DNA of 64,000 bases, taken from assembly GCA_013297775.1 (NCBI GenBank), contig JAAFIL010000001.1:125711-189710 (forward strand), written 5' to 3'. Both the position numbers and the translations under genes were made by a program. Each line of letters starts with the position of its first letter. The stretch's first letter is position 1. Below are positions 49,484 to 55,869 of the stretch, one piece after another. Source of the stretch: Bacteroidota bacterium. GTDB lineage: Bacteria > Bacteroidota > Bacteroidia > B-17B0 > Aurantibacillaceae. Below the pieces are notes generated by a model, which saw only the letters and a list, made by a program, of their open reading frames with translations, had not been told where the DNA came from and did no database searches.

Positions 49484-50449
49484 ATGATAGTTATTACAGG
49501 TGCGGCAGGTTTTATAGGCAGTTGTTTGGTTTCTAAATTGAATGCCGAGGGCTATACTAATTTAATAGTAGTGGATGATTTTAATAAAACCAATAAACAG
49601 GCCAATTTGTTGCATAAAACTTATCGTTTACAAATAGAGCGAACTGTTTTTATAGACTGGTTAAGTGCCCACCACAGCGAGGTAGAAGCCGTTTTGCATA
49701 TTGGTGCCCGAACCGATACGACCGAGTTAAATCCCATTATCTTTGAAACTTTAAATAGCCACTATACGCAACACCTTTGGCAACTGTGCGCTCAACATAA
49801 TATTTCTTTTATTTACGCTTCGAGTGCGGCAACCTATGGTTTAGGAGAGCAAGGTTATACCGACGACGAATCGAAAATTCCATTATTAAAACCTTTAAAC
49901 CCTTATGGCGATAGCAAACAGGTATTTGATGTGTGGGCCTTGCAACAAACGCAACAACCCAAACATTGGCATGGCCTTAAATTCTTCAATGTTTATGGCC
50001 CTAATGAATACCATAAAGCACGTATGGCTTCTGTTATATTTCATGCGTTTCATCAAATACAACAAAGTGGGCAGGTGAAATTATTTCGGTCGCACGATGC
50101 TAATTACACCGATGGCGGGCAGTTGCGCGATTTTGTATATGTAAAAGATGTAGTAGAGGTAATTTATTATTTATTTAAGCAACAGCCCAAAAATGGTATT
50201 TACAATTTAGGAAGTGGGAAAGCCCGAACGTTTTTAGACTTAGCTAAAGCCACTTTTGCCGCATTAGAGAAAGAACCCAACATTGCGTTTATAGATACGC
50301 CTCTTGATATACGCGATAAATACCAATACTTTACCGAAGCCAATATGAATAAGTTACTAGCAACAGGTTACACCAAACCTTTTACCGAGTTGGAAGCAGG
50401 CGTGATGGATTATGTGAAAGAATTTTTGCTGCATACAAAGTATTTATAA
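49484..50449 (+). CDS. hldD: ADP-L-glycero-D-manno-heptose 6-epimerase
   Basis: Makes ADP-L-glycero-D-manno-heptose for lipopolysaccharide core or other heptose glycans. 321 residues, extended SDR. NAD motif TGAAGFIGS, YASSAATYG with the catalytic Ser/Thr, and Tyr-X3-Lys in NPYGDSKQ; KFFNVYGPNEYHKARM follows. It borders the polysaccharide cluster and probably supplies a sugar to it. Confidence 0.9.
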   Translation: MIVITGAAGFIGSCLVSKLNAEGYTNLIVVDDFNKTNKQANLLHKTYRLQIERTVFIDWLSAHHSEVEAVLHIGARTDTTELNPIIFETLNSHYTQHLWQLCAQHNISFIYASSAATYGLGEQGYTDDESKIPLLKPLNPYGDSKQVFDVWALQQTQQPKHWHGLKFFNVYGPNEYHKARMASVIFHAFHQIQQSGQVKLFRSHDANYTDGGQLRDFVYVKDVVEVIYYLFKQQPKNGIYNLGSGKARTFLDLAKATFAALEKEPNIAFIDTPLDIRDKYQYFTEANMNKLLATGYTKPFTELEAGVMDYVKEFLLHTKYL

Positions 50450-50488: not shown

Positions 50489-51442
50489 TTACTCTATGAC
50501 TAAGCCATACTTTGCTAAACGCTCTTGATAGGCCGTTAATACTTTTTGTTGCGTTCCATTGGGATGGTGTTTTTCGGCTTGTTTTTGAGTACGCATGTTC
50601 AAATTAAAATCGGCTTCATTAAAATGTTTAAATTTTTTTCGACGACGTTTTTCCATAAAATGAAACAAACGCTTTTCGAGCCAATCGCCGAAAAAACCAT
50701 TTAAACACTTCTCAAAAAAACTTTTCCATTTATACGTGGGCTGAGGATTTAACAAGGCTTGTTTGTAGTAAGGACGATTGGGCAAGTAATTATCGGTCCA
50801 ATTATTTGCTTCTTGAAAGCGTTGATACAAGGGCAAATTAAAGGTAGGAACAATGGTGCGTACTTCGGTGGCAACAAAGCGGTTGTGATCGGGCACTAAA
50901 AGTCTTCCTTCTTCTAAAAAATAATTCATACAAAAAAAATGTTCCGAACGTTTCAAAAAAAATTTTTTATACCCTCGTAATAAACTCCGACACACCCAAA
51001 GTCTATTTTTAGCAGTAATCACAAAATAATCGTAATCATCACTTTCACGCATCACGCCTTTAGAGTAAGACCCCGACATATACACGCCTCTCACAAACGG
51101 AAAACTGGCTATAACCTTGCTATACCGAATTACATTATTTTTAGCGAGTTGATGCAAACACTCCCCTTGTGTTCGTTTTTCAATCCAATTGACCGACCTA
51201 TCCTTCAAGAAAAAAAAACCATTCTTGGTATCAAGGATTCCCCTGCTAACTAAGTCAAGTAGCTCTTGCTCCACTTCCTTTTTTTCGCAAACCAAGGTAC
51301 TGTTATCAAAAATTTCGGTTAAGGTTAATGGAAATTCAAATACATCGTAATAGCAGATAACTCTTATCAATTGCGCTTGTGCCAAGTTAAAATGGCGCAA
51401 GGGTGTCGTTTTGTTATTTATAGAATCAGAATTCAAAGTCAA
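50489..51442 (-). CDS. nucleotidyltransferase-fold protein in polysaccharide cluster
   Basis: 317 residues. The first 80 look like a winged-helix region (FPLTLTEIFDNSTL, then ELLDLVSRGILDTKNGFFFL). Residues 124-143, GSYSKGVMRESDDYDYFVIT, fit the polymerase-beta-type nucleotidyltransferase motif GS-X(9-11)-DxD (Gly124-Ser125, Asp136/Asp138). C-terminal half is basic, helical (KRRRKKFKHFN). Substrate unknown. Its ATG overlaps the stop of the methyltransferase gene by 4 bases, making it last of the leftward operon. Could be a nucleotidyl-transferring enzyme for a glycan or lipid, or an antitoxin-like fold; context favours the former. Confidence 0.65.
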   Translation of the reverse strand: MTLNSDSINNKTTPLRHFNLAQAQLIRVICYYDVFEFPLTLTEIFDNSTLVCEKKEVEQELLDLVSRGILDTKNGFFFLKDRSVNWIEKRTQGECLHQLAKNNVIRYSKVIASFPFVRGVYMSGSYSKGVMRESDDYDYFVITAKNRLWVCRSLLRGYKKFFLKRSEHFFCMNYFLEEGRLLVPDHNRFVATEVRTIVPTFNLPLYQRFQEANNWTDNYLPNRPYYKQALLNPQPTYKWKSFFEKCLNGFFGDWLEKRLFHFMEKRRRKKFKHFNEADFNLNMRTQKQAEKHHPNGTQQKVLTAYQERLAKYGLVIE

Positions 51443-52104
51443 TGAATTTCAAAGATATAATTTTCTTCCCAACTTATTTTTTTGGATTGAATACAATTAA
51501 AAGATAAATTATATTGGAAAGCCAGTAGTTGGATGCGTTCAATCTCGCAATTGTTGGCCAAAACCATGTAGCAAGTTCCCTCGGGGTGTAGATAGGTTTT
51601 TAAATGGCTAAAAAAAGAAATAAAAAATTCACCTTGTGCTCCACAATTCCAAGCAAGTTGAGAAGTACTCTTAACTTCATTAAAAAAGTAAGGTGGATTA
51701 ATGAACACCACATCGAACAGTTGAGGTGGAATGGATTGAAATACATTGGATTGAAGCACCGTAAATGTTTGTGGCTTAGCTTGCGGAAAATTTTTTTGAA
51801 GATTTAGCTGCACACATTCAACAGCCGCTGGGTTTAAGTCGAAACAGCACACGGTTGCCCCTTTTTGATAGGCTAATAAGCTGATGAAGCCGCTACCTGT
51901 GCATGGTTCGCAAACACGTTTCCCTTTTAGTGGCAAGGTTTCGACAAACGCTGCTAAATATTTTGAACTGAAAAAAAAGCGCGGGTGGAAAACACTTGGC
52001 AAAATTATAAACTGTAATTTTTTATAATGGAAACGGCGTGGCTTTTTTAAATACCATGCTACAAAAGGTTTTACTAATCGCTTTGCTATGTATTGCCGCC
52101 ACAT
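51439..52104 (-). CDS. class I SAM-dependent methyltransferase (NPPY type)
   Basis: 221 residues from ATG 52104, which overlaps the stop of the upstream radical SAM gene (TAATG). The start at 52140 would overlap 36 bases for no gain. SAM motif I CEPCTGSGFIS (65-75), acidic loop FDLNP, and NPPY (136-139) as in N-methyltransferases of the HemK/PrmC or N6-adenine type. Basic N-terminus (KKPRRFHYKKL). It may methylate an amino group on a sugar, protein or lipid precursor. The operon places it with two radical SAM enzymes. Confidence 0.75.
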   Translation of the reverse strand: MWRQYIAKRLVKPFVAWYLKKPRRFHYKKLQFIILPSVFHPRFFFSSKYLAAFVETLPLKGKRVCEPCTGSGFISLLAYQKGATVCCFDLNPAAVECVQLNLQKNFPQAKPQTFTVLQSNVFQSIPPQLFDVVFINPPYFFNEVKSTSQLAWNCGAQGEFFISFFSHLKTYLHPEGTCYMVLANNCEIERIQLLAFQYNLSFNCIQSKKISWEENYIFEIH

Positions 52105-53606
52105 TAGAACCCCTCCGTTTCTGGTTGTCGGTATTTCCAAATTTTATGTAAGAACCGAATTTCTTTTGGGTAGGCGTGTACGCCACTGGCATAGCGCCAT
52201 GCACTAACGGCACGTATCACTTTTTGTTGAAAGGGGCTAAGTTGTATATCTGAACACGAAGGGTAACGGCCGTTTAAGACCGTTTCAAAATTTTTAATTT
52301 TATCAATCATGTAAGGTTTAAGCCAAGGTGTAAGCGGATTTTTGCGTAAATCAAAATTCTCCCAATGCGGGCTAATCCACTCTTCTAATGTTTCAGGAAA
52401 ACGAAACCCTGCTGCCATCACTTGTTCGTATAACTCTGAACCTTCGGTAGGCACAGGGCTGTAGAGGTAGATAATAATTTCGGTATTGGGATTAATGGCT
52501 TTAATTTTTTTAATAAACGCAATGTCCTCATCAATTTGCTGATTAACTTGCGCTTCGGTTTTACCGGGAATTCCTAACACAAACGAGTATTCGGGAATAA
52601 TATTAAAGCGACGCAAGCGTTGAGCAAACTTTAAAATTTGAGCCCCTGTTTGTGTCCCTCCTTTATCCATTTGTTTAAGTACAGCATCGTTACCCGTTTC
52701 GGCACCAAAAAAAATCATTCGGCAACCCGCATCACTTATGGTTTGTAACGACTCATCGCTGTATTTATCCATGGTATCAATACGCGCTTCGCCCCACCAA
52801 GTCATGTTGTGTGGCGCAATTAACTTAGCAAACGCTACGGTTCGTTTTTCGGATACAAAAAAATTATTATCGTGAAACTCAATCGCATCGCCTTTGTACT
52901 TCTCCTTTAAAAAAATAGCATCTTGATAAATTCCTTGTGCCGACTTACCTTTCCAGCGAGCATTGTAAATAGGCACTACTGCGCAAAACGAGCAGGTAAA
53001 CGGACAACCAAAACTACTGTGGTAGGCAATAGTTTTTTTACCTAAATAAGTAGTACATAAATAACTTTCGAGCGAATAAAACGTATTCAATTTATCGTAA
53101 GGTAAGGCTGGCAACTTATCTAAATCTAACAACTCTTCTTTGGCTGTTTTTACAAACGCATTCCCTTCTTTATAAATTAAATTTTTAATCGTGTTAAACG
53201 GCAAATTTGTTTCAATGGCTTTTAAGAGTTGCGGAAAGGCAGTGTCGCCAGGGCCATTAATTATAAAATCTATATAGCCCGAGTTTAAACTAACTTTGTA
53301 TTGATTAGAAGCAAAGTAGCCGCCCCAAATTATTTTAATATGTGGATAGGTTTCTCTAATTTTTTTTGTGAACGGAATGGCTTGTTTTAATTGCGGACCA
53401 GGCATTACGGTGCAACCAAAATATTTTATTTTTCCTGTGAGTAAGTACTCATTTATTTTGAGCCAAGGGTCTGTTTCCTTATTCCCATCTACAATAACCC
53501 AATCGTGTGTGGCATCAATGCTTGCTGCTATTTGCAAAACCGAATTGGGAATGCGGGGATTATAATTGGTAGCACGAGGGTTAAACAGAAGTACAGTATT
53601 TGTCAT
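52104..53606 (-). CDS. B12-binding-domain radical SAM enzyme 2
   Basis: 500 residues from ATG 53606 (ATGA overlap with the upstream gene; the alternative at 53633 is less likely). Residues about 1-140 are a cobalamin-binding-like Rossmann domain (TNTVLLFNPRATNYNPRIPN); the base-off DxHxxG motif is not visible. Radical SAM cluster Cys201-X3-Cys205-X2-Cys208 (FGCPFTCSFC). Later GEARIDTM and AETGNDAVLKQMDKGG are typical. Related to the BchE/PhpK-like group that does methylations or ring chemistry. 35% alike by eye to the neighbour at 53603-55018 in layout, so probably a duplication. Confidence 0.82.
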   Translation of the reverse strand: MTNTVLLFNPRATNYNPRIPNSVLQIAASIDATHDWVIVDGNKETDPWLKINEYLLTGKIKYFGCTVMPGPQLKQAIPFTKKIRETYPHIKIIWGGYFASNQYKVSLNSGYIDFIINGPGDTAFPQLLKAIETNLPFNTIKNLIYKEGNAFVKTAKEELLDLDKLPALPYDKLNTFYSLESYLCTTYLGKKTIAYHSSFGCPFTCSFCAVVPIYNARWKGKSAQGIYQDAIFLKEKYKGDAIEFHDNNFFVSEKRTVAFAKLIAPHNMTWWGEARIDTMDKYSDESLQTISDAGCRMIFFGAETGNDAVLKQMDKGGTQTGAQILKFAQRLRRFNIIPEYSFVLGIPGKTEAQVNQQIDEDIAFIKKIKAINPNTEIIIYLYSPVPTEGSELYEQVMAAGFRFPETLEEWISPHWENFDLRKNPLTPWLKPYMIDKIKNFETVLNGRYPSCSDIQLSPFQQKVIRAVSAWRYASGVHAYPKEIRFLHKIWKYRQPETEGF

Positions 53607-55018
53607 GACATTAATTGTTCGGGTTTTAACCACTGTCTTAATTTTTTCTCGAACGGAAATTGGTAAGCCCTATTTTCGATGCGCCATTTTGCTAACTCTT
53701 GAAAAAGTAATTTTGCAGGCGTACGTTTGTTGTAGGCAAGGTTTTGGTAGAATTTAAAATTTTCGATTTCCTCTATTTTTTCTTCACTTATCCATTCGCT
53801 TTTTTTGGTGCCTACATAATCAAAATCGCTCCACTCTTCGAGGGTAGAAGCAAATTGGTAGCCCTTTGCTAACAACTCATCTGCAATTTTATTTCCGGGA
53901 TAAGGTTTAAAATAAAAAATACCAATATGAAATGTGCTACTCATTTTACGCAATTCTCTTACAATTCGCAATGTTTCGGAAATGCTTTCATCGGTTTCGT
54001 CAGGAAAGCCAACAATAACGCTAAAGTTGATAGCAATGTTGTATTGAATACACTTTTGAGCCGCTTCAAAAATATGATTGACTTTAATATCTTTCTGCAT
54101 CCAATCGAGCATGGCTTGTGTACCCGCTTCCATGCCAATCATTACGCGCTCTAAACCCGATTGCTTACAAAGTTGCCAAACTTCATCATCTAGCCTTACG
54201 CCTTGGTCGGCGCGCATTGTACCAAACCATGATATATTTAATTTTCGATTAATCAACTCTTGTGCTACTGCTTTTACTCGTTTACTGTTGGTGAAAAACG
54301 TTTCATCTTGTAAATGCACGTGTTGAAATTTATATTTTTTCAATAAGGTTTCTAGTTCGTTGCCCATGCGTTCGGGACTAAACCCATACCACCCTCGTTT
54401 ATACATAAATGGATCGGCACAAAACGAACATCGGAAACGGCAACCTTGCGAAGACACGTAATCGAGTTGATTTCGTCCACTCAGTGCCACATATTTTTTT
54501 ACATCTATCAACTCATAATTAAAGGGCGGAAAATCATTAATATCGGCCATTGTTCGTGCGGCGTTATGACTTATTTTTCCATTTAGTTTATACGAAATGC
54601 CTTGCAAGCCCTCTAGCGATTGCTGGTTAACAAAACGTTGCACCAACTCCGCAAAGGTAACTTCGCCTTGTCCGTTTACAACAACATCTATGGCTTCGTT
54701 TTCTAACGTTTGTTGTGGAAAAAGCGACGGGTGCCAGCCGCCCCAAACAATTGGAATTTCGGGAAACTGTTTTTTTACTTGTTGCGAAACTGCAAGTGCA
54801 TCTTTGATTGGGCTACCCGTTAAAACTGTGGTAGCAAAGCAAACGCCATTGTTGGCCAATGCTTCAGAAATTTTAAGAGATGGATTCTTTTCTAAACGCC
54901 CATCAATAATAACCACATTAAATTGTTGAGAATCTAAGTAGGAACCAATGGCAATTAATGCCAAGGGCATGGTATAAAAAACGGCATACGGATTATATAG
55001 AACAACAGTTTTTTTCAA
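53603..55018 (-). CDS. B12-binding-domain radical SAM enzyme 1
   Basis: 471 residues. N-terminal cobalamin-binding-like domain (KKTVVLYNPYAVFYTMPLAL, WGGWHPSLFPQQ), again without DxHxxG. Radical SAM cluster Cys193-X3-Cys197-X2-Cys200 (QGCRFRCSFC), with IGMEAGTQAMLDWMQKDI further on. Same layout as the next gene, whose start overlaps its stop by 4 bases. Five bases separate it from the Wzz-like gene upstream. A role in modifying a polysaccharide lipid carrier or sugar is inferred from the neighbourhood only. Confidence 0.82.
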   Translation of the reverse strand: MKKTVVLYNPYAVFYTMPLALIAIGSYLDSQQFNVVIIDGRLEKNPSLKISEALANNGVCFATTVLTGSPIKDALAVSQQVKKQFPEIPIVWGGWHPSLFPQQTLENEAIDVVVNGQGEVTFAELVQRFVNQQSLEGLQGISYKLNGKISHNAARTMADINDFPPFNYELIDVKKYVALSGRNQLDYVSSQGCRFRCSFCADPFMYKRGWYGFSPERMGNELETLLKKYKFQHVHLQDETFFTNSKRVKAVAQELINRKLNISWFGTMRADQGVRLDDEVWQLCKQSGLERVMIGMEAGTQAMLDWMQKDIKVNHIFEAAQKCIQYNIAINFSVIVGFPDETDESISETLRIVRELRKMSSTFHIGIFYFKPYPGNKIADELLAKGYQFASTLEEWSDFDYVGTKKSEWISEEKIEEIENFKFYQNLAYNKRTPAKLLFQELAKWRIENRAYQFPFEKKLRQWLKPEQLMS

Positions 55019-55023
55019 AGGAC

Positions 55024-55869
55024 CTAAGTTTTATCCAGTAGTTTTTTATCTTTAAACCCGGCGTGTATTAAACTTATTACAAGAAATATGGGAACAAAGA
55101 GTAAAATTAAAAATTTTAACTTAGGCCAAATTGGTTTTTGACTCACCACACAGGGTTTAATTAATTCAAAACTTTCTAAATACGCTTTTTGAACTTCTAA
55201 AACCAATTGCTCTTTATACAACTTCATGGTTGCTTCGTAGGATTTTAAGGGGTCTAAGGGTACATTATACACCAAGCCACTATTGCCTGTTGATTGAGGT
55301 GGTCTAATATTGGCAATAACTATTTTTTTAACACTATCCATTTCACGCATCTCGCTTTTAATTTTGGTAGATATGTTTTCCAAATTAGCAGTGCGCATTT
55401 TTTTTGATTTTTGATAATGATCCGATTTTTCTAAATACTTGAGAATACCGTTTTGAACATTTATAAATTTATCTTTTGTTAGCATTTCAAGTGTAATAAT
55501 AACCGAGCCTAAACTCTCTTTGTCTTTCCCTGTAATGATAGGGAGAACCGTTAGTTTTTTTAATCCTTCTAGTTCTTTTTCATTTACGCTTAGTTCATTG
55601 GCCAGTCCGGCATAATCTCTATCGTTTACCAATCCCACTAAATCCAAAAGCATATTGTAATAATACTTATCGCTTCCGTCGTTAGCCTTTATAATTAGAG
55701 TACCCCCGTAAACAGAAGGGATAGTAAATTTTAAAATAAGGGAGAGCGCAAGTGCCAATGCCATATAGGATATAACCAAAAACTTATACTTAGTAATTAA
55801 TTTAAACGGCGTTAGTACTTTATTTATCAGTAAATAAAAATCAATAATGTCATCTTTCTCTTGCGGCAT
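55024..55869 (-). CDS. Wzz-like chain-length / polysaccharide co-polymerase protein
   Basis: 281 residues with membrane segments at both ends (FLVISYMALALALSLILKFT near 30-50, LIKPC..LKFLILLFVPIFLVISLI near 240-270) and a periplasmic coiled-coil middle (KKMRTANLENISTKIKSEM). This is the layout of Wzz proteins that set chain length of O-antigen or capsule. No C-terminal kinase. First gene of the leftward operon, divergent from the flippase by 67 bases. Confidence 0.82.
   Translation of the reverse strand: MPQEKDDIIDFYLLINKVLTPFKLITKYKFLVISYMALALALSLILKFTIPSVYGGTLIIKANDGSDKYYYNMLLDLVGLVNDRDYAGLANELSVNEKELEGLKKLTVLPIITGKDKESLGSVIITLEMLTKDKFINVQNGILKYLEKSDHYQKSKKMRTANLENISTKIKSEMREMDSVKKIVIANIRPPQSTGNSGLVYNVPLDPLKSYEATMKLYKEQLVLEVQKAYLESFELIKPCVVSQKPIWPKLKFLILLFVPIFLVISLIHAGFKDKKLLDKT

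Follow-up and report, generated by a model that had tools for sequence, protein, structure and literature searches.

Five genes lie in a row on the reverse strand of the window, the 64,000 nucleotide stretch of Bacteroidota DNA that was analysed (contig JAAFIL010000001.1, positions 125,711 to 189,710). They encode a Wzz-like membrane protein, two radical SAM proteins of the B12 type (rSAM-A and rSAM-B, or A and B), a methyltransferase (M1) and a protein with a nucleotidyltransferase fold (N) (Table 1). The spacing is as claimed in an earlier note on this DNA, which described five translationally coupled genes: there is a 5-base gap between the Wzz-like gene and A, a 4-base overlap (ATGA) between A and B, a 1-base overlap (TAATG) between B and M1, and a 4-base overlap (TTGA) between M1 and N. 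The open reading frames listed for B and M1 begin upstream of these junctions, at 53633 (merely the first GTG in frame) and 52140; the ATG codons within the overlaps, at 53606 and 52104, are preferable, and alignments with relatives concur. In relatives, same-strand gaps between core genes have a median of −1 base, with 200 of 335 zero or negative, and the B-M1 gap has a median of −1 (54 of the 80 named loci). Therefore, the coupling of the row is not a matter of chance. The junctions suggest that all five products are made jointly.

Table 1. Genes of the row and the gene that converges on it
Feature	Position	Strand	Description
Wzz-like membrane protein	55024..55869	-	First of the row, divergent from Wzx
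rSAM-A	53603..55018	-	TTG start; B12-binding and radical SAM protein, rare optional member
rSAM-B	52104..53606	-	ATG start at 53606; B12-type radical SAM protein, conserved tailoring member
M1	51439..52104	-	Class I SAM methyltransferase, NPPY motif, regular neighbour of B
N	50489..51442	-	TTG start; winged helix and polymerase-beta-type nucleotidyltransferase fold; obligate partner of rSAM-C
hldD, ADP-glyceromanno-heptose 6-epimerase	49484-50449		Converges on the row and ends 40 bases from it

The row adjoins Wzx/Wzy genes, as the note had also observed. Divergently upstream are genes for a Wzx-type flippase and a Wzy_C-type protein, and these are followed by glycosyltransferases (GT4s) and a polyprenyl-phosphate sugar transferase. 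The Wzz assignment of the window protein is weak, at 14.6 bits with Pfam Wzz against a cut-off of 25.5; a relative in locus L040 that is 45% identical scores 31.0 bits, above the cut-off. All five members of the Wzz-like protein cluster adjoin a divergent Wzx-Wzy pair.

The row is part of a larger conserved unit, which comprises B-M1, N-C and C-M2-D. C and D are further radical SAM enzymes of the B12 type, and M2 is a methyltransferase. In related genomes, B-M1-N runs on into rSAM-C, M2 and rSAM-D. Relatives of B were confirmed in at least 557 stretches of named genomes, of which the best 80 (64–76% identity) were read. Gene order was counted over 89 loci, a few genomes possibly being counted twice; B-M1 are adjacent in 63, C-M2 in 55, N-C in 25 and M2-D in 24. 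Longer runs are B-M1-N (23 loci), B-M1-N-C (19) and Wzz-B-M1-N (two). The exact order Wzz-A-B-M1-N, which the earlier note proposed to look for in other genomes, is present in one of the 89 loci, that of the window itself, so that the operon in its exact five-gene form is not the conserved unit.

The genome of the window carries C, M2 and D on another contig (C74, at about 60.7–64.3 kb of 153.6 kb; L037:5702-9340). There they adjoin a DNA cytosine methyltransferase gene and a MarC-like gene, away from polysaccharide genes. Neither of the two sites is at a contig end, and therefore the split is not a simple assembly break. In two other genomes (L134:8282-16400 and L133:4175-12804), a run of small unrelated genes lies between the N-C pair and D-M2, which gives the impression of a cluster broken up by insertions.

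Several other genes recur beside the cluster. One encodes a conserved lipoprotein with a CxxCH motif and no Pfam or NCBIfam match, with 25 members in 25 loci (e.g. L023:15384-16505 and L026:5417-6553), and some loci also have a protein that looks like an arylsulfotransferase. An overlapping pair that encodes an amidohydrolase and a methyltransferase is found beside B in 14 loci (e.g. L092:7782-8939 and L111:9087-9860), and may be another optional module. A protein of ~320 residues, also with no Pfam or NCBIfam match, precedes B in several Chitinophagaceae (e.g. L065:8996-9958).

Co-occurrence was assessed in 345 genomes of the Bacteroidota phylum, with C called at E ≤ 1e-100. C is found in 25 genomes and N in 27, and all 25 genomes with C have N (hypergeometric p 5e-36). 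B (15 genomes, p 5e-20), D (seven genomes, p 4e-9) and A (three genomes) all fall inside the C-N set, where the p-values take no account of the relatedness of genomes; an eighth match for D, in G239, is the C gene itself. N and C are adjacent or within about 5 kb of one another in 24 of the 25 genomes, the genome of the window being the sole exception. Because B, D and A occur solely within the C-N genomes, N and C form the core, and B-M1, D and A are add-on modules. At the genus level, B is present in 15 of 25 genomes and A in four of 31; A is solitary in three genomes that were looked at, and in a fourth it has a SPASM radical SAM gene as its neighbour. The genes of the row do belong to a real, evolutionarily conserved functional group. 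In the tree of B sequences, Mucilaginibacter falls within the Chitinophagaceae, and Ignavibacteria are placed next to a group of Flavobacteriales; these placements suggest some horizontal spread.

A and B are members of the radical SAM superfamily. CxxxCxxC is present in all 206 sequences of types A–D, and Pfam Radical_SAM scores of 70.2 bits (A) and 41.7 bits (B) are above the cut-off of 29.5. For the B12-binding domain, A scores 49.2 bits, above the cut-off of 32.1, and B 25.0 bits, below it. The N-terminal Rossmann-type B12-binding domain of class B is thus recognized in A by Pfam, and in B by the fold along its length. The AlphaFold2 model of B (pLDDT 85.9) aligns over its whole length with OxsB, AprD4, CysS, MgmA and TsrM (369–436 residues, Z 21–23), and the best PDB sequence-profile match of the B family is AprD4 (E 3.6e-10).

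The earlier note had pointed out that both radical SAM proteins of the row have B12-binding-like N-terminal domains that lack DxHxxG. Both parts of the description hold, and none of the 206 A–D relatives examined has the motif in its N-domain. Its absence is ordinary in the cobalamin radical SAM class (PMC13331322), and says nothing against cobalamin. In this class, the loop after strand 3 places an Asn (OxsB), an Arg (TsrM) or a Trp (TokK) under the cobalt (PMC13331322). Met68, which is invariant among 40 relatives of B and lies in the loop after strand 3 of the B model, may be the counterpart of these residues. The genome of the window encodes MetH and therefore uses B12, so that B12 chemistry is available. 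The radical SAM enzymes of the pathway probably use cobalamin.

No NCBIfam or Pfam equivalog names A–D, N or M1 directly. With the AprD4 family (NF033070, cut-off 500), B, A, C and D reach 44.9, 61.2, 97.5 and 83.0 bits, and with TIGR04295 (B12_rSAM_oligo, cut-off 400) 29.8, 38.5, 96.7 and 62.1 bits, respectively. The best scores with HpnJ, BchE, PhpK and rSAM_ladder are 106–157 bits, below the cut-offs of 577.6, 481.35, 600 and 360. AprD4 shows that the domain layout alone leaves the reaction unsettled.

M1 is a class I SAM methyltransferase of the NPPY type. It scores 42.6 bits with Pfam MTS (cut-off 23), and NPPY/NPPF is kept in 76 of 79 relatives. Its closest matches are HemK2/PrmC-type enzymes, at 61.8 and 53.2 bits, below the respective cut-offs of 87 and 199.1. 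N has the hG[GS]...DxD motif and fold of polymerase-beta-type nucleotidyltransferases, with GS...DxD kept in 66 of 67 relatives; it scores 18.4 bits with Pfam NTP_transf_2, below the cut-off of 21, and NCBIfam cut-offs are likewise not reached. Its AlphaFold2 model (pLDDT 92.6) combines a winged helix at the N-terminus with a C-terminal domain that resembles ANT(4′)/kanamycin nucleotidyltransferase (Z 8.5–8.7 over about 114 residues); these domains were told apart with VIA-align only, and families missing from the VIA-align list are not thereby excluded. Foldseek with the N model gave no match under 1e-3. On the strand expected to carry the third catalytic acid, which we assigned by our own reading, N has an invariant Asn173 and no Asp or Glu.

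The link to polysaccharide genes was assessed from the neighbours of N-C, i.e. proteins within 6.5 kb with the core excluded, and from controls that were arbitrary stretches, mostly of the same genomes. Among 140 neighbours, Pfam finds 16 Glycos_transf_1, four GT2, four GT9, four Wzy_C, three GT87 and two Bac_transf matches; none of these families is among the 25 leading ones in 138 control proteins, where one or two hidden matches are possible. BLAST typing gives 35 glycan genes among 209 proteins beside N-C versus 0 among 280 controls, a count that is partly circular because the types were defined from B loci; this does not apply to the Pfam counts. A glycan gene is present within 6.5 kb in 15 of 23 N-C loci and absent from the other eight, and several N-C-M2 loci lie among housekeeping genes. 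The glycan link is thus a strong tendency and a real trend, but it is not obligatory. The scattering of genes away from polysaccharide loci, which the earlier note took as an outcome that would refute it, is seen in part of the phylum. Its proposal that the genes modify a surface glycan is partly supported: it gains from the conserved group and the glycan enrichment, and loses from the five-gene order being confined to the window, from the eight N-C loci that have no glycan gene, from the rarity and frequent solitary occurrence of A and from the location of C-M2-D among unrelated genes in this genome.

The product of the hldD gene beside the row scores 374 bits with TIGR02197 (cut-off 274.6), several genomes of the genus have hldD homologues close to the cluster as well, and GT9 genes near some N-C loci are a further heptose clue. 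Heptose as the modified sugar can be set aside as a requirement, since hldD is found in just 15 of 25 N-C genomes versus six of 20 others.

The best explanation for the row is that it represents one half of a modular radical SAM pathway. Such a pathway would build or decorate a sugar-containing metabolite or glycoconjugate, and in this genome would be coupled to the Wzx/Wzy locus; we hold this reading tentatively, at a little below even. What the analysis shows is the gene order, the overlaps, the co-occurrence, the glycan enrichment and the folds; we infer the use of cobalamin, the reactions (C- or N-methylation and nucleotidyl transfer), the substrate, and export and destination. The core would consist of N and rSAM-C, usually with the methyltransferase M2, and B-M1, D and A would be optional modules on top of it. 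With SAM and probably cobalamin, the radical SAM enzymes would abstract hydrogen from carbons that are not activated, and these would be methylated, deoxygenated or rearranged. M1 with its NPPY motif would methylate an amino or amide nitrogen, and N may nucleotidylate either a hydroxyl of the intermediate or a partner protein, or may sense the intermediate. Because the Wzz-like protein encoded opposite Wzx/Wzy is probably co-translated with B, M1 and N, the product in this genome would most likely be carried into, or attached to, an exported polysaccharide.

The strict co-occurrence, the overlapping adjacencies (B-M1, C-M2, M2-D and N-C) and the glycan-gene neighbours argue for this pathway, as does the predicted cobalamin radical SAM fold of B, a class that includes the sugar enzyme AprD4. 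GenK, GenD1 and AprD4 are precedents for such enzymes acting on sugars (PMC5461906). Against it are the eight of 23 loci with no glycan gene, the solitary A in three genomes and the unrelated genes beside C-M2-D here, as well as the scores of N below Pfam cut-offs and the Asn at what we read as the position of its third catalytic acid. A more specific form, less likely than not, is a Bacteroidota pathway that is widespread and so far undescribed. In it, B12-type radical SAM enzymes, from two to four in number, and a winged-helix nucleotidyltransferase that is the obligate partner of one of them would remodel the carbon skeleton of a sugar (C-methylated, deoxygenated or branched), and this sugar would then enter an exported polysaccharide or glycolipid. 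C-methylation followed by N-methylation, an example given in the earlier note, is possible; it can be put no higher because the closest solved relative of B by profile is AprD4, a sugar dehydratase and not a methylase.

A glycosylated small molecule, and not a polymer, may lie behind the enrichment of glycosyltransferases, and a free-standing small-molecule pathway is the main rival. Its product would be a secondary metabolite or cofactor-like compound, perhaps glycosylated and with an ABC transporter as its exporter, and the adjacency to Wzx/Wzy here would be incidental or regulatory. ABC transporter and GT4 genes are recurrent in the clusters, many genomes have N-C-M2 on its own amid housekeeping genes (e.g. 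L127, L129, L130 and L135), pathway members can be dispersed over one and the same genome (L133; A in L170–L173), and the distribution is patchy, at 25 of 345 genomes. However, polymer-type genes (Wzy_C, Bac_transf, GT87, Wzx and Wzz) are strongly enriched in Bacteroidia loci, and the small-molecule reading is doubtful on balance, if a serious contender.

A lipid or a protein as the target is less likely. BchE/HpnJ-like radical SAM enzymes that modify a lipid (polyprenyl carrier, lipid A or a hopanoid-like lipid) would fit the presence of HpnJ, BchE and rSAM_ladder_B12 among the best NCBIfam matches, and of GT87 genes and heptosyltransferase-like GT9 genes in the vicinity of some loci. The NCBIfam matches all fall well short of the curated cut-offs (e.g. 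HpnJ, 106 versus 577.6), and RiPP and aminoglycoside enzymes are among them too; they therefore mark the superfamily only; in addition, the conserved set has no lipid-synthesis genes, which makes a lipid target improbable. Equally improbable is a peptide or protein target, where B12 radical SAM C-methylation would be joined by HemK-like (NPPY) methylation of a protein and AMPylation by N. The closeness of M1 to HemK2/PrmC-type enzymes, matches to rSAM_ocin_1, ApyD and MgmA, and the AMPylating enzymes among relatives of the N fold are in its favour, but the RiPP-family matches are all below cut-off, and gaps of ≤5 bases in the row, and mostly zero or negative ones in relatives, leave no room for a precursor peptide. 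A RiPP pathway was rejected for the lack of precursor space inside the row.

Returning to the modular pathway, its components can be compared with known systems. OxsB, TokK, CysS and TsrM share with B the N-terminal Rossmann domain and CxxxCxxC barrel (Z 19–23 over 402–436 residues for the B model), and lack DxHxxG as do A–D. They differ in that identity is about 15%, B is shorter and its cobalamin binding is predicted, and the Asn, Arg or Trp of OxsB, TsrM and TokK (PMC13331322) would be replaced by the invariant Met68. AprD4 is a radical SAM diol dehydratase from the apramycin pathway and removes oxygen from the sugar ring of paromamine (PMC5461906). B aligns with it at Z 22.6 over 399 of 453 residues, and the AprD4 substrate contains a sugar; however, B reaches 44.9 bits where the NCBIfam AprD4 cut-off is 500, and in the general inspection of gene neighbours, no AprD3-like reductase was recognized. 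The C-methylation by GenK and GenD1 and N-methylation by GenN in gentamicin synthesis likewise combine B12 radical SAM enzymes and an N-methyltransferase on a sugar (PMC5461906), and M1 weakly matches GenN structures. Here, in contrast, aminoglycoside scaffold genes were not seen, M1 is nearer to HemK2-type enzymes, and the organisms and gene neighbours are others. The TIGR04295 B12_rSAM_oligo family is alike at the superfamily level, with C at 96.7 bits, and differs in that A–D are all below its cut-off of 400. N resembles ANT(4′)/kanamycin nucleotidyltransferase in its C-terminal fold and GS...DxD motif, and differs by the added winged helix and by having a radical SAM enzyme as a conserved partner.

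The open-access literature yielded no report of such a radical SAM/nucleotidyltransferase-like cluster, which is weak evidence of absence, and the pathway is apparently undescribed. Each of the proteins adds a member to a known superfamily, and what is new is the strict N-C partnership and the nested modules. To our knowledge, the literature has hardly any radical enzymes that act on exported sugars.

Up to four radical enzymes, conserved as a set and strictly co-occurring, would offer a defined and testable route to new sugar chemistry. The hosts are common soil and freshwater Bacteroidota (Niastella, Mucilaginibacter, Puia and Pinibacter), several of which are cultured. From the nested distribution, with core N-C and optional B-M1, D and A, an order of reactions can be predicted and put to the test one module at a time. 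Should the product be a small molecule instead, the cluster would represent an unrecognized class of biosynthetic gene cluster.
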